Shown in pieces: positions 11,128 through 16,851 of a stretch of DNA of 23,876 nucleotides. Both the position numbers and the translations under genes were made by a program. The stretch is from a virus: IMG/VR virus record IMGVR_UViG_3300029787_000223, positions 1 to 23,876 of that record. The stretch is one strand, 5' to 3'. The notes beneath the pieces were generated by a model. The model had not been told where the DNA came from and did no database searches. It saw nothing but the letters and a program-made list of their open reading frames with translations. How positions within the stretch are numbered: position 1 is the stretch's first letter; every line of letters begins with the position of its first letter.

Positions 11128-11481
11128 ATGGAAAGTTTTAAATATTTTAAATTAGAAGATTTTAACTGCCAAGAAACAGGCGAGAACGGAATGCAAGAGT
11201 ACTTTATTCGTAGGTTAGACTGCTTACGAGAGGCTTGTGGTTTTCCGTTTTATATTACTAGTGGTTATAGAAGTCCAAATCATAGCATAGAAAAAGCTAA
11301 GAAAACTCCGGGGCAACACGCTAAAGGTATAGCGGCTGACATAGCAGTTAAAGATGGAGTACAAAGAATGCAAATTGTAAAACAAGCATGTGCTTTAGGA
11401 TTCACAGGTATTGGAGTTGCTAAAGGCTTTGTGCATGTAGATATAAGAGATACAAACACCCCTGTATTGTGGGGATATTAA
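11128..11481 (+). CDS. Peptidase M15 family endolysin (D-Ala-D-Ala carboxypeptidase-like)
   Basis: 117 aa, beginning directly after the TAA of the giant virion gene, with AGAGGAAA upstream. It shows the M15A pattern: SGYRSPNHS at ~45-53, H64-x6-D71 in HAKGIAADI, and VHVDIR with H103. H64, D71 and H103 are the expected zinc ligands, and D105 follows. The whole protein is this single domain, with no signal peptide or separate wall-binding domain. The expected role is cleaving peptidoglycan cross-links for lysis, reaching the periplasm through the holin encoded three genes downstream. The family assignment is strong; the exact bond cleaved is not shown by sequence. Confidence 0.9.
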   Translation: MESFKYFKLEDFNCQETGENGMQEYFIRRLDCLREACGFPFYITSGYRSPNHSIEKAKKTPGQHAKGIAADIAVKDGVQRMQIVKQACALGFTGIGVAKGFVHVDIRDTNTPVLWGY

Positions 11482-11796: not shown

Positions 11797-12035
11797 AATT
11801 AGTAATTGCTTTAATCGTTTTAATTGATGGTGTTCCAGATGATTCTAAAAAAACTTATTATAATAACCCAAGTCATTGTGAGTACGTTGCTCAAATGCTC
11901 ACCAGACAAAGAAGATATTATATGGGTGTTGAGGAAGGTACAGTTTTCTGCCGCCCAGAATGGGTTGAAAAAGACACAACAGTAACTAGATTAAATGTAA
12001 TACCGCGACCAAAGGTTGAAGAGGAAGAAGAATGA
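11793..12035 (+). CDS. Small protein with hydrophobic start and acidic tail, unknown
   Basis: 80 aa. The start codon overlaps the previous stop (ATGA), and its own stop overlaps the next start, so it is translationally coupled inside the lysis cassette. The first ~12 residues (MKLVIALIVLID) are hydrophobic but too short for a convincing signal peptide. Two Cys lie at ~29 and 53, Tyr/Arg-rich sequence lies between them, and the protein ends in five consecutive Glu. No family was recognised. Confidence 0.65.
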   Translation: MKLVIALIVLIDGVPDDSKKTYYNNPSHCEYVAQMLTRQRRYYMGVEEGTVFCRPEWVEKDTTVTRLNVIPRPKVEEEEE

Positions 12036-12397
12036 TAGAAAAATTAATAGCTCCAGTATCAGGACTACTAGATAAGTTTATTCCTGATGCAGATCAAAAA
12101 GCTAAGTTAGCCCATGAGATAGCAACTCTTTCAGAAAAACAACATCAAGAAGTTATGTTGCAACAAATAGAGCTTGCAAAGATAGAAGCACAAGGCAGTA
12201 TGCTACAGCGAACTTGGAGGCCGATGATTGGACATTGTTGTTGGGTTGGGTTAGGATATAACGTAATCATAAGTCCATTTCTAGGTATTTGGTTGCCAGT
12301 ACCGGAGATACAGAGCGACCTACTTTATCCTGTTTTGCTTGGAATGTTGGGAATGTCAGGAATTAGAGGAATAGAAAGAGTTAAGGGAAAAGCATAA
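12032..12397 (+). CDS. Holin of the three-TM superfamily (gene-transfer-agent holin type)
   Basis: 121 aa. The N-terminal ~55 residues are helical and charged (LLDKFIPDADQKAKLAHEIA, then Gln/Glu-rich). This leads to the typical TWRPMIGHCCWVGLGYN entry into a membrane segment, with further hydrophobic segments at ~75-92 and ~97-112 and a basic C-terminus. Arrangement and the W-R-P motif match the 'holin of 3TMs, for gene-transfer release' family as I know it. It would form inner-membrane lesions that let the M15 endolysin reach the wall. Starts and stops overlap both neighbours. Confidence 0.85.
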   Translation: MIEKLIAPVSGLLDKFIPDADQKAKLAHEIATLSEKQHQEVMLQQIELAKIEAQGSMLQRTWRPMIGHCCWVGLGYNVIISPFLGIWLPVPEIQSDLLYPVLLGMLGMSGIRGIERVKGKA

Positions 12398-12582
12398 TGG
12401 CTGTTAAAAAGAAAAAGTCTACAGTAAATAAAGCAGGAAACTACACTAAGCCTACAATGCGTAAAAGATTATTTAATAGAATTAAAGCAGGATCAAAGGG
12501 CGGTAAGCCGGGTCAATGGTCAGCGCGAAAAGCACAGATGTTAGCTAAAGAATATAAAGCCAAAGGGGGCGGTTACAAGTAA
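12397..12582 (+). CDS. Small basic protein with KGGKPGQWSARKAQ motif
   Basis: 61 aa, very Lys-rich, with the ATG sharing one base with the previous stop. The central motif AGSKGGKPGQWSARKAQ and the terminal KGGGYK are a conserved signature I recall from phage and environmental small proteins (possibly Pfam DUF5872, from memory). The function is unknown; the composition suggests nucleic-acid contact. A run of five G's near the 3' end (12564-12569 region) opens an alternative frame discussed with the next element. Confidence 0.75.
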   Translation: MAVKKKKSTVNKAGNYTKPTMRKRLFNRIKAGSKGGKPGQWSARKAQMLAKEYKAKGGGYK

Positions 12583-12679
12583 GACAACAATATACGTTCA
12601 TCCTTATTTAAGGACGGAAGTAGGCATGGGGCCGAAGGAACGCGATTGATTAACAGTCAATTACGTTATGGAGGTTAAT
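12583..12679 (+). other. Intergenic element with possible three-way-junction RNA fold
   Basis: 97 nt without an ordinary gene in an otherwise gap-free module. Three helices can form: P1 CGTTC (12595-12599) with GAACG (12638-12642); P2 TCCTT (12601-12605) with AAGGA (12610-12614), loop ATTT; P3 GGC (12623-12625) with GCC (12631-12633), loop ATGGG. The purine-rich linkers are CGGAAGTA and GAAG. The same bases read in one frame as HPYLRTEVGMGPKERD followed by TGA. A -1 shift would continue as LINSQLRYGG and stop at the ribosome site of the next gene. It could be a structured RNA, a frameshifted small gene, or both. Confidence 0.35.
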
Positions 12680-12796
12680 ATGACTAAACAACAAAACACG
12701 CAAAAAGTATATAGAGGTGTTAAATACAACGCAGTTAAAAAAGAAACTTCTCAATTAAACCAAGGTGTTTATCGCGGAGTTAAGTGGAGTAAATAG
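12680..12796 (+). CDS. 38-aa basic protein with duplicated YRGVK motif
   Basis: The ATG at 12680 follows GGAGG with a 5-nt spacer, one of the best ribosome sites in the window, which supports this very short gene. The protein contains YRGVKY near the N-terminus (11-16) and YRGVKW at the C-terminus (32-37), joined by a Lys/Gln/Asn linker. A double YRG-V/L-x-aromatic arrangement is typical of DUF4278 proteins, mostly cyanobacterial; the resemblance is from memory and the rest does not align clearly. Function unknown. Confidence 0.65.
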   Translation: MTKQQNTQKVYRGVKYNAVKKETSQLNQGVYRGVKWSK

Positions 12797-12805
12797 GAGA
12801 GTAAC

Positions 12806-12958
12806 ATGAAAGTAAAAGCCCCCTCTGGTTATCATTGGATGAAGCAAAAGAATGGAGCATATAATCTAATGAAACATACTGGTAAGTTTGTACCGCACAA
12901 AGGTGCATCTTTAGAAGCTAATTTTAAAATACAAAAGTTACATGACAAAAAGAAATGA
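12806..12958 (+). CDS. 50-aa basic protein, KAPSGYHWMKQKNG type
   Basis: The ATG at 12806 is preceded by AGGAGAG, and the stop TGA overlaps the ATG of the next gene. The sequence begins MKVKAPSGYHWMKQKNGAYN and continues with LMKHTGKF. Lys and His are abundant, with no Cys and no membrane segment. I recall similar short proteins in marine phage late regions but know no function. It fills part of what would otherwise look like a 370-nt gap. Confidence 0.65.
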   Translation: MKVKAPSGYHWMKQKNGAYNLMKHTGKFVPHKGASLEANFKIQKLHDKKK

Positions 12959-13245
12959 AAAGTTTTTTATTATGGGTACATGAAAGTTGGGAACTAGTAA
13001 TGAATGCAAAAGTAAACCCACTTAGATACATTCCTGATCCTAGTCTACAAGCATATTTTACTATTGTTTTATTTACAATGTGGAGTTGTTTTTTTGGATT
13101 ACTTTGTTCATATTGGGGTGGGTTGTTTGCAAGCTATGATACTTTTACAAGCATAGTTGTTCATTTATTAATTGTTATTCCTATTATTATAACTAACTCT
13201 GTATTTAAAGAAGCAGAAAAATATAGGATAAAAGATGGCACTTAA
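12955..13245 (+). CDS. Two-TM small membrane protein
   Basis: 96 aa, ATGA overlap with the previous gene. Residues ~30-57 (SLQAYFTIVLFTMWSCFFGLLCSYWGGLF, abbreviated here) and ~65-80 (IVVHLLIVIPIIIT) are hydrophobic enough for two membrane segments, with a charged C-terminal tail (FKEAEKYRIKDGT). It may take part in lysis or in altering the host membrane; no family was recognised. The next gene starts inside its last codons. Confidence 0.7.
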   Translation: MKSFLLWVHESWELVMNAKVNPLRYIPDPSLQAYFTIVLFTMWSCFFGLLCSYWGGLFASYDTFTSIVVHLLIVIPIIITNSVFKEAEKYRIKDGT

Positions 13246-13480
13246 AAAATCTCAAAAGTCTTTAAAGTCTTGGACAAAACAAAAGTGGCGAACTAAGAGT
13301 GGTAAAAAATCTTCTAAAACTGGCGAAAGATATCTCCCCGAAAAAGCTATAAAGGCTTTAAGTGCTAAAGAATATGCGGCAACTACGCGCAAAAAAAGAG
13401 AAGATACAAAGAAAGGAAAGCAACATTCAAAACAACCAAAGCGAATAGCTAAGAAAACGAGGTCATACAGAAAGAAATGA
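13235..13480 (+). CDS. 81-aa highly basic protein, unknown
   Basis: About one third Lys/Arg. It contains KSLKSWTKQKWRTKSGK, a TGERYLPEKAIKALSAKEYAA segment and a basic tail ending RSYRKK. It overlaps the previous gene by 11 nt and the next by ATGA. The pattern is one I associate with conserved marine-phage small proteins. DNA or RNA binding, perhaps as a packaged basic protein, is a guess from composition only. Confidence 0.75.
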   Translation: MALKKSQKSLKSWTKQKWRTKSGKKSSKTGERYLPEKAIKALSAKEYAATTRKKREDTKKGKQHSKQPKRIAKKTRSYRKK

Positions 13481-13686: not shown

Positions 13687-13817
13687 GTTGGTTAGAAGAC
13701 TACAACGGAGACGGAGCTAGATGGTGGCACGTTATAGTTTTAATTGTACCCATAATTAGTTTTATTGTTTATGTTCTTTTGTTTGGTGGTGAACCAGAGG
13801 TACAGATAAATGAGTAA
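13683..13817 (+). CDS. 44-aa single-TM protein
   Basis: The ATG at 13683 overlaps the previous stop (ATGA), and the gene ends 8 nt inside the next gene. The N-terminus MSWLEDYNGDGARWW is soluble and acidic. Residues ~16-35 (HVIVLIVPIISFIVYVLLF) form one membrane helix, followed by a short acidic tail. No family was recognised. Exact fit between two coupled genes is the main support. Confidence 0.6.
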   Translation: MSWLEDYNGDGARWWHVIVLIVPIISFIVYVLLFGGEPEVQINE

Positions 13818-14100
13818 AAAGAAAGATTCTAGATTATCAAGGGCAGGAGTTAGTGGATACAATAAACCGAAGCGTACCCCTAGTCACCCTAAGAAAAGCC
13901 ACATTGTTGTGGCAAAAGAAGGTGACAAAATTAAGACGATTAGATTCGGTCAACAAGGAGCCAAAACCGCAGGTAAACCCAAGGCAGGTGAATCATCTCG
14001 TATGAAAAAGAAGAGAGCAAGTTTTAAAGCAAGACACGCTAAGAATATAGCTAAAGGCAAAATGTCTGCGGCATATTGGGCGAACCGTACCAAGTGGTGA
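13810..14100 (+). CDS. DUF6321-like basic protein
   Basis: 96 aa, rich in Lys, Arg, Ser and Gly. The opening SRLSRAGVSGYNKPKRTP, the middle VVAKEGDKIKTIRFGQQG and the end FKARHAKNIAKGKMSAAYWA match the family I know as DUF6321, common in phage late regions; recalled, not searched. Function unknown. Its start lies 8 nt inside the 44-aa gene and the next small gene begins 4 nt after its stop. Confidence 0.8.
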   Translation: MSKKKDSRLSRAGVSGYNKPKRTPSHPKKSHIVVAKEGDKIKTIRFGQQGAKTAGKPKAGESSRMKKKRASFKARHAKNIAKGKMSAAYWANRTKW

Positions 14101-14762: not shown

Positions 14763-14984
14763 TTAAATATGACTCAAAGATTTTAATTCTTTTTCTAAAT
14801 AGAAATGCATTTCTTCTAACTTAGGTTTTGCAAGACCTACTAGTTTTTTCATAATATTTAATTCATTATCTTTAAAGACTCTAGACAAATGATTCTCAGG
14901 GACACTACTAAGTTCTGTTATAATAGTGCCACTAGAATCTATAATAACTTTAAAGCTTATAATGTTAGCTTCATTGTATTTCAC
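14763..14984 (-). CDS. 73-aa protein with GTG start, unknown
   Basis: The start codon is GTG (14982-14984), 14 nt inside the RNR gene's 3' end, with AGGAAC upstream. A beta-like N-terminal half (ANIISFKVIIDSSGTIITEL) is followed by a helical half (ELNIMKKLVGLAKPKLEEMHF and on). No family was recognised. Coupling to the reductase may be only operon packing. Confidence 0.65.
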   Translation of the reverse strand: MKYNEANIISFKVIIDSSGTIITELSSVPENHLSRVFKDNELNIMKKLVGLAKPKLEEMHFYLEKELKSLSHI

Positions 14985-16851
14985 AAGATGTTCCTACACA
15001 CGCCAACTCCTGAGAGCCTACCGTATTATCTTCTGTTTCAAAAGCTTGTAACTCTACAGCCCAATCTACATCTTTAGGCATTTCTTTTAAAAGCTCTTGA
15101 TATTTACTTCTATCTATTTCTTCATAAGGTGCTTGCTGATAAACATGATCACTATATGGTAGTAACGATATACCAGAACAAACATCAAAGTTTTTCCATA
15201 TCCATTGAGCAACCTCAAGAAACTCGTCATCAGTATAATAAATAGTAATACTAGGTTTATGTTCGCACCAAGCATCTTGATACATTTTCCAAAGATTTAG
15301 TTGTTCCATTGCGCCTGTTTGTTTAACAGTTACACTAGACTTTGGAGCCTGTACAGGAAAGCTAAATACTTTAGACTTAGGAGACATTACATCCTGCTCA
15401 ACAGGAAAACCCCTATCAGACATAAACACAGAAAGAGGGTCTTTCTCGTCCGCACGAACTCTACGGATATAATACTGAGAAAAACGAGGATGGATACCAC
15501 TAGCACTATTAACAAGTTGACTAACAGTACCGCTTGGTTTAACGCATGTAATAGCCGTTGATTGATTAATGTCAAGTTTCTTTGCCCATGTTTTATTAGT
15601 TTTGATAGCAACATATTTCATCTCTCCTAACCATAGTTCTGTTTTATCACATGGTTTTCCAAGAACAGGATGATCCATAATGCCTGTCAAACTTACTCCA
15701 AGCAATGCTTCTTCTTCTGTATTCTTTTTCCAAACACTTCTTAAATACCTAAAGTCCGTTAAAGTAGCTTGAAGAGTTCCTATAATAGCGGCTACTTTTA
15801 CTTTTTCTTTTAAAGTTTCTAGGTTATCGTCATTTCTAATAACTACTTCAGATAAATTACAAAATTGATTTGACCTAAGTATAATCTCAGAACAAGGATT
15901 AGTTCCAAAGTCTTGATTAGGATCTCTTCTATCGTTTCTAGCGGCTATCTTTTGAGCCGCAACCCTGCTAAAGATACCGCGCTCTCCGGCCTTAGATTCA
16001 TACATGTTCTGCATCTCACTAAGAAAGGCTTCAAAGTCAGGCTTTTCAGTATAGGCTACACTATTGTTAGCTAATCTTCTTTGACCCTCATTGCGCCACC
16101 AGTCACCCATCTTAGCTTTACCCATTCTTTGATCCGAAAGATTAGATAAACTAATTAAAGCAGAACGCCTAACACCACCGACAACTACAATGTCTGCAAC
16201 CTTACAAACAACATCGTGGCATTCTATAGAAGTAAGCTTACGTCCTTTTGCTTTTGTAAATATACCAACACAAAAATTAAACAAATCATCTAGTGGTTCA
16301 GGGCCAGAAGCTCTACCGCCAAAAGTTTTTAATCTAGCTCCGGCAGGTCTTACTTTACTTAAATCCCACTTAGGAATCTTACCTGCATAAAGTAAACTAA
16401 TTAACTCTCTAAATGCAGAAGACCACCCTATCTTACTATCTGCTACAACAATCATCGTATCAGTTGGATGAAAAGATTCAGCAACTTCCGGGAGTTTATT
16501 AATAAAGTTTCTTTCTACACTAAAGCCAACACCAGTACCGCACATAAGAACATACATGAGTTCATCAAAAGACCTTGGAGAATCTATGTGCAAATAACTA
16601 CAATTAAATCCTGCTACATTATCTCTATCTAATGCTTCTCCGGCTGTCATAATACAACGCATAGATGGCATAACATCTAAGTTATAAACAGCCTCATATA
16701 TTTTCTGTCCTTCTGCTACAGTTATTTGTTCTCTGTCTCTCCAAAACTGTACATAACGATAAACAGTTTCTGCCCATGTTTCTCTTCTTTTATGTTCAGG
16801 GAGCCATCTAGCATAACGACTTTTATGTATAAACTCTTGATACTGATCCAT
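14971..16851 (-). CDS. Class II (adenosylcobalamin-dependent) ribonucleotide reductase, monomeric type
   Basis: 626 aa. It should reduce ribonucleoside triphosphates to dNTPs using adenosylcobalamin and supply phage DNA synthesis. The expected residues are present: C84 in GFNCSYLHI, the radical Cys C320 and E322 in GTNPCSEI, C331 eleven residues later in FCNLSEV (same 11-residue spacing as C408/C419 of Lactobacillus leichmannii RTPR), the phosphate loop PSGT at 439-442, and a C-terminal redox pair C618-x4-C623 as in RTPR C731/C736. It is shorter than RTPR (739 aa), so insertions are reduced. No intein is visible. No beta subunit or activase is encoded nearby, as expected for class II. The start is 4 nt after the small basic gene upstream. 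Confidence 0.93.
   Translation of the reverse strand: MDQYQEFIHKSRYARWLPEHKRRETWAETVYRYVQFWRDREQITVAEGQKIYEAVYNLDVMPSMRCIMTAGEALDRDNVAGFNCSYLHIDSPRSFDELMYVLMCGTGVGFSVERNFINKLPEVAESFHPTDTMIVVADSKIGWSSAFRELISLLYAGKIPKWDLSKVRPAGARLKTFGGRASGPEPLDDLFNFCVGIFTKAKGRKLTSIECHDVVCKVADIVVVGGVRRSALISLSNLSDQRMGKAKMGDWWRNEGQRRLANNSVAYTEKPDFEAFLSEMQNMYESKAGERGIFSRVAAQKIAARNDRRDPNQDFGTNPCSEIILRSNQFCNLSEVVIRNDDNLETLKEKVKVAAIIGTLQATLTDFRYLRSVWKKNTEEEALLGVSLTGIMDHPVLGKPCDKTELWLGEMKYVAIKTNKTWAKKLDINQSTAITCVKPSGTVSQLVNSASGIHPRFSQYYIRRVRADEKDPLSVFMSDRGFPVEQDVMSPKSKVFSFPVQAPKSSVTVKQTGAMEQLNLWKMYQDAWCEHKPSITIYYTDDEFLEVAQWIWKNFDVCSGISLLPYSDHVYQQAPYEEIDRSKYQELLKEMPKDVDWAVELQAFETEDNTVGSQELACVGTSCEIQ

Follow-up and report, generated by a model that had tools for sequence, protein, structure and literature searches.

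What fills the only sizeable stretch without an ordinary gene in the late small-gene block of this phage is the question raised by the locus. The window (the whole stretch of DNA analysed, 23,876 nucleotides) is part of a virus record of 30,059 bases, and the block in question carries a peptidase M15 endolysin-like gene at 11128 and a GTA-type holin at 12032. Adjacent ORFs between 11128 and 14262 overlap or sit within about 12 nt of each other, with 12583–12679 (97 nt) as the sole exception, which bears out the sequence-only reading in calling this the only real gap of the module. Three proposals had been made there for the gap: a free small noncoding RNA, a cis-regulator of the genes downstream, or a small gene needing frameshifting. 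No tRNA or tmRNA was found within the window, and a search of the whole window against all of Rfam returned a single match, to RF01739, the type I (glnA) glutamine riboswitch. The parts of the gap and the gene preceding it are as follows.

12397–12582, plus strand: upstream gene encoding a 61-aa basic protein (phrog_17747, E 8e-38), intact and unshifted, with the C-terminus GGGYK and stop as in L012
12593–12646, plus strand: type I (glnA) glutamine riboswitch aptamer (RF01739, 62.5 bits, E 7.2e-12, model positions 1–53 of 53)
12595–12599, plus strand: P1 5' strand CGTTC, 5 bp with 12638–12642 (Rfam alignment)
12601–12614, plus strand: P2 hairpin TCCTT-ATTT-AAGGA, 5 bp, 12601–12605 with 12610–12614 (Rfam alignment)
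12615–12622, plus strand: J2/3 CGGAAGTA, a sequence fixed by the search pattern in relatives
12623–12633, plus strand: P3 hairpin GGC-ATGGG-GCC, 3 bp, 12623–12625 with 12631–12633 (Rfam alignment)
12638–12643, plus strand: P1 3' strand GAACG plus C12643 (Rfam alignment)

The curated cut-off of RF01739 is 35 bits, and all strongly conserved consensus positions of the family are matched by the window aptamer in the Rfam alignment. The three-way junction that had been drawn from the letters, with a 5-bp closing stem, a 5-bp and a 3-bp hairpin and purine-rich linkers (CGGAAGTA and GAAG), is exactly P1/P2/P3 of this family. The fold thus stands while its extent does not, as the aptamer covers 12593–12646 and not the whole 97 nt, the remaining 12647–12679 being leader with a ribosome site. 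By plain folding the 97 nt stand out only mildly (z -2.36), yet the element is taken as real because the family match lies far beyond chance. A type II glutamine riboswitch (Downstream-peptide, RF01704) was considered and rejected, with a partial match of 19.5 bits against a cut-off of 33. We put the probability that the gap is a type I glutamine riboswitch controlling the YRG gene that follows it, as read from the sequence, at roughly 90%. Of the three proposals the cis-regulator of the downstream gene was the right one and can now be named, and the element is a new case within a known riboswitch class, not a new kind of element.

In the solved structure glutamine is held by C1, G22, C58 and G59 (PMC6698751), G22 and G23 stack on it, and G23-C60 is the linchpin pair when glutamine binds (PMC11477058). 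The conserved junction segments CGGAAGTA and GAAGGAACGC are present in the window; assigned by motif, C1, G22, G23, C58, G59 and C60 correspond to C12595, G12616, G12617, C12641, G12642 and C12643, and none of them is missing. C12595 should then be the counterpart of the ligand-contacting C1, and G12616/G12617 those of G22/G23, with C12643 as the predicted equivalent of C60, the linchpin partner of G23.

The genes at and beyond the 3' end of the gap are the following.

12670–12674, plus strand: ribosome-binding site GGAGG of the YRG gene (from the sequence), 5 nt upstream of the ATG at 12680
12680–12796, plus strand: predicted regulated gene, a 38-aa protein with two YRG motifs (DUF4278-like; PF14105 21.6 bits; phrog_5049/phrog_545)
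13235–13480, plus strand: downstream basic-protein gene (phrog_14910), also found after the riboswitch and YRG gene in L012 and L031

With its end at 12646, the Shine-Dalgarno (SD) sequence at 12670–12674 and the start codon at 12680, the aptamer has the position of a 5' leader element near a start codon. The free small noncoding RNA is therefore not needed as an explanation, because the element ends 33 nt upstream of a start codon that has its own ribosome site. The YRG protein (MTKQQNTQKVYRGVKYNAVKKETSQLNQGVYRGVKWSK) matches DUF4278 (PF14105) with E 3e-4, its 21.6 bits being under the gathering cut-off of 25.3, and phrog_5049 with E 5e-5, and phrog_545 is also matched; a viral relative (L023) passes the PF14105 cut-off with 26.5 bits. 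An alignment of 18 proteins, taken from viruses, cyanobacteria and a SAR92-type bacterium, shows no variation in either YRG motif. Among close relatives the gene shows three nonsynonymous and zero synonymous codon differences, and hence no sign of purifying selection at that range. A weak structure model (pLDDT 76.7, pTM 0.27) predicts two short beta hairpins.

Glutamine riboswitches of cyanobacteria are mainly located ahead of DUF4278 genes (PMC6316151). That of gifB governs IF17, a glutamine synthetase inhibitor that can do without its DUF4278 part (PMC6316151), and through it glutamine increases the synthesis of IF17 (PMC6316151; PMC11288750). Related small proteins under the same switch in cyanobacteria act, or are thought to act, on nitrogen or glutamine metabolism. 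By analogy the YRG protein might act on host nitrogen or glutamine metabolism, a role that is possible though on balance doubtful, and an action on glutamine synthetase itself is a guess only, because 38 aa are too short for both parts of IF17. As for the host, the DNA polymerase is closest to those of pelagiphages HTVC115P, HTVC103P and HTVC104P (46–49% identity), and the 61-aa gene is shared with phages that infect SAR11, roseobacters, OM43 and SAR116, so that both point to a heterotrophic marine bacterium rather than a cyanobacterium as a candidate host.

The whole gap is 100% identical in the close viral relatives L044 and L099, in which the neighbouring genes differ by 0.5–13%. L012 and L031, which are more diverged viruses, have the same succession of 61-aa gene (phrog_17747), riboswitch, YRG gene and phrog_14910, with an extra gene separating the 61-aa gene from the riboswitch in L031; their leaders align at 81–84% (the aptamer is about 85% conserved), the YRG gene can no longer be aligned as DNA, and the aptamer of L012 scores 56.8 bits with RF01739. 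Among the matches listed, the first three pairs of P2 are canonical in all 81 distinct viral aptamers (shuffled means 56–66, maximum 71). These aptamers were gathered by exact matching to the conserved blocks, which fixes P1 and J2/3 and leaves only P2 and P3 informative. Compensatory changes give TA, AT, GC and CG pairs in P2 across the 81. Homologues with neither conserved pairing nor a conserved peptide would have spoken against a functional element; what the relatives show is pairing that is conserved and covaries.

In L073 the riboswitch and its YRG gene sit behind a relative of the window gene at 13810–14100, and in other relatives behind other genes of the block. The best 80 viral relatives of the 61-aa gene have no aptamer within the stretch examined around each, and the pair is for this reason not fixed to the neighbourhood of the 61-aa gene. 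Since it is found behind other genes in other relatives and is lacking in those of the 61-aa gene, the riboswitch-YRG pair seems to be a cassette moving inside this gene block. HTVC103P and HTVC115P, the nearest isolated relatives by DNA polymerase, and MEP401 and HTVC033P are each without an RF01739 match, and a plasmid search gave chance matches only.

The riboswitch is likely a translational ON switch, mainly by analogy with the tested members of the class. No intrinsic terminator was found in the leader, and translation is therefore the likely level of control. One alternative pairing stands out in the predicted fold.

12639–12667, plus strand: proposed expression platform, anti-P1 AACG 12639–12642 with CGTT 12664–12667 around a hairpin at 12644–12662 (ligand-free minimum free energy fold)

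The anti-P1 pairing and P1 are mutually exclusive, and L012 has the same topology, so that the predicted folds of two lineages give modest support to this platform as the switching hairpin of the window. At low glutamine, CGTT 12664–12667, a copy of the P1 5' strand, would pair with the P1 3' strand and leave the start region, SD and start codon included, partly closed. When glutamine is plentiful, P1 would be stabilised and C12643 captured, which would break the alternative pairing and allow the YRG protein to be translated from within a longer late transcript; the phage would thus probably make this protein only in a glutamine-rich infected cell. The cost of opening the region from SD to AUG is 4.9 kcal/mol in the free state versus 3.7 with the aptamer formed, a difference in the right direction but small, and the mean pairing of the window SD is unchanged at 0.75 in both states.

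In most viral and bacterial leaders with this aptamer, an anti-SD helix has its start at C60 or beside it, and its arms differ between leaders but match each other (for example CACCT/GGGTG, CGCCTC/GAGGCG, CATCTTT/GGAGATG and CTTTAC/GTAAAG). Among the matches listed, stems of this kind reach five pairs or more in 67 of the 79 viral leaders and 33 of the 41 bacterial ones, the mean number of pairs being 5.6 and 6.0 respectively, versus 3.6 and 3.3 in shuffles. A helix so placed would be consistent with a ribosome site that is set free once glutamine captures C60. The window leader is without it, with a pairing run of just 2 at C60, and because of this the mechanism proposed for the window rests on the predicted alternative fold of the two lineages. 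A copy of the P1 5' strand is present in 29 of 79 viral leaders among the matches listed, versus 15.4 in shuffles. As a general idea the mimicry of P1 was given up, the enrichment in the YRG subset (10 of 26 versus 5.7 shuffled, maximum 12) not being significant. Simple folding was also discarded as proof of an ON switch: when the aptamer was enforced in 92 leaders, SD pairing rose by more than 0.2 in only one of them and fell by more than 0.2 in five, and nearest-neighbour energies thus fail to show the switch.

That the aptamer is instead an OFF switch, or acts through transcription or RNA stability, is a less likely alternative, to which we give about a third of the weight of the translational ON switch. 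Enforcing the aptamer is for most viral leaders not enough to free the SD (mean unpaired 0.41 in the free state and 0.38 with the aptamer), and SAR11-type aptamers precede glnA- and amtB-like genes, for which repression by glutamine is more obvious. Against it, both relatives that have been tested (Synechocystis gifB and the type II riboswitch) are ON switches (PMC6316151, PMC6698751), the anti-SD helix of most leaders begins at the linchpin C60 as ligand-driven release would have it, and the leader shows no terminator. The translational ON switch is accordingly kept as the preferred mechanism. A decayed riboswitch, an inherited aptamer that regulates nothing in this phage, would be in line with the lack of the common anti-SD helix in the window leader; it is very improbable, as the aptamer has every conserved position intact (62.5 bits), and the leader is 100% identical in L044 and L099 and still present in L012 and L031.

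A hidden or frameshifted small gene (HPYLRTEV..., MGPKERD) filling the gap can practically be dismissed, even though there is a 16-codon open stretch and a ribosome-site-like GGAAGTAGG ahead of an ATG. The peptide HPYLRTEVGMGPKERD, followed by a stop, and LINSQLRYGG in another frame exist as literal translations of the gap, and are by-products of the aptamer sequence. The lengths of the aptamer in relatives, 41–61 nt, are spread over all three frames, the HPYLRTEV frame has stops in L012, L031, L045 and L114, and in L012 the 61-aa gene has an unchanged end, GGGYK and stop. For these reasons a frameshift into the gap is not indicated, neither for a small gene needing it nor by the G-run of the upstream gene, which had been suspected of shifting ribosomes into this frame. 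The GGAAGTAGG noted before the MGPKERD ORF is indeed there, but it is the conserved J2/3 of the aptamer and does not mark a small gene.

A scan of viral contigs with the pattern found this riboswitch in at least 119 stretches, in most cases ahead of unstudied microproteins. The YRG protein is the next gene in 32 of 121 viral sites among the matches listed, a count in which the window is included twice (as the window and as L001). In L002–L120 the riboswitch is located before at least five unrelated types of microprotein (YRG, DNPFYP, GTSGY..KSTNNW, WTxYCR and NWQLxLIKQQKEKEQ), most of them without a family match. Pattern matches in bacteria precede YRG proteins in SAR92-type and DNPFYP-type proteins in SAR86-type genomes, and are also found in cyanobacteria; in L125, L129, L140, L141, L146, L147 and others, from SAR11-type alphaproteobacteria, the type I switch stands before glnA- and amtB-like genes, names that come from a reading of the translated sequence and not from a family search. 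Across the family-level groups that were searched, a match exceeding the cut-off occurs in 12 of the 28 genomes from one Pelagibacterales group, in 5 of 35 from a SAR86 group and in 4 of 112 from a SAR92 group. Tandem glutamine aptamers before one gene occur in G001–G003, G006, G011, G012, L148 and L168 (SAR92- and SAR86-type, and some viruses), unlike in the window, which has one aptamer. As a tentative proposal, to which we give somewhat less than even odds, marine phages of several host groups could have built a small "glutamine regulon", in which one switch class controls several unrelated microproteins (YRG, DNPFYP, GTSGY..KSTNNW and WTxYCR), some of them resembling SAR92, SAR86 and OM43-like host microproteins under the same switch, so that infection would read or reshape the nitrogen status of the host.

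Glutamine riboswitches in phages and together with DUF4278 are already published. The Synechocystis gifB leader (RF01739) shares with the window the aptamer class, the P1-P2-P3 junction, J2/3, C60 and an adjoining DUF4278-type gene, whereas here the gene is of a phage, the 38-aa protein is without the IF17 inhibitor part, and another leader hairpin follows P1. The OM43 phage Melnitz, Pelagibacter phage Mosig and Prochlorococcus phage AG-345-P14 are also marine phages with a glutamine riboswitch, in genomes with tmRNA genes and in Melnitz at a two-piece tmRNA gene (PMC9004378), while the window has its riboswitch within a late small-gene block, ahead of the gene for a small protein. The isolated T4-like cyanophages S-H34 and P-TIM68 resemble the window in having an RF01739 match directly upstream of a YRG protein, of 43 or 47 aa, and have weaker aptamers (43.7 and 35.4 bits). 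These riboswitches (L325 1001–1091 and L326 1047–1093) are absent from the listed features of the two records. The type II riboswitch (RF01704) binds glutamine at a closely similar site and also has DUF4278 targets, in picocyanobacteria, but its pseudoknot architecture is unlike that of the window aptamer. A 2018 review gave the type I class as restricted to cyanobacteria; new are this phage lineage, the wide spread among viruses ahead of microproteins of unrelated types, and the occurrence of the switch in bacteria of the SAR11, SAR86 and SAR92 types. An unexplained gap thereby becomes a testable switch, with a phage gene expected to respond to one named metabolite, and the interest lies in the breadth of such switches in marine phages and in the YRG protein, which bears on whether phages control host nitrogen assimilation.

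Two further observations concern other genes of the window. The 50-aa gene at 12806–12958 is replaced by a different 98-aa basic protein in L044 (6078–6374) and L099 (1252–1548), the swap site lying between the YRG gene and the window gene at 12955–13245; this is a local gene exchange, the stretch being otherwise about 98% identical. On the minus strand, 14971–16851 encodes a 626-aa protein resembling class II (B12-dependent) ribonucleotide reductase, with Pfam matches that are weak and split.
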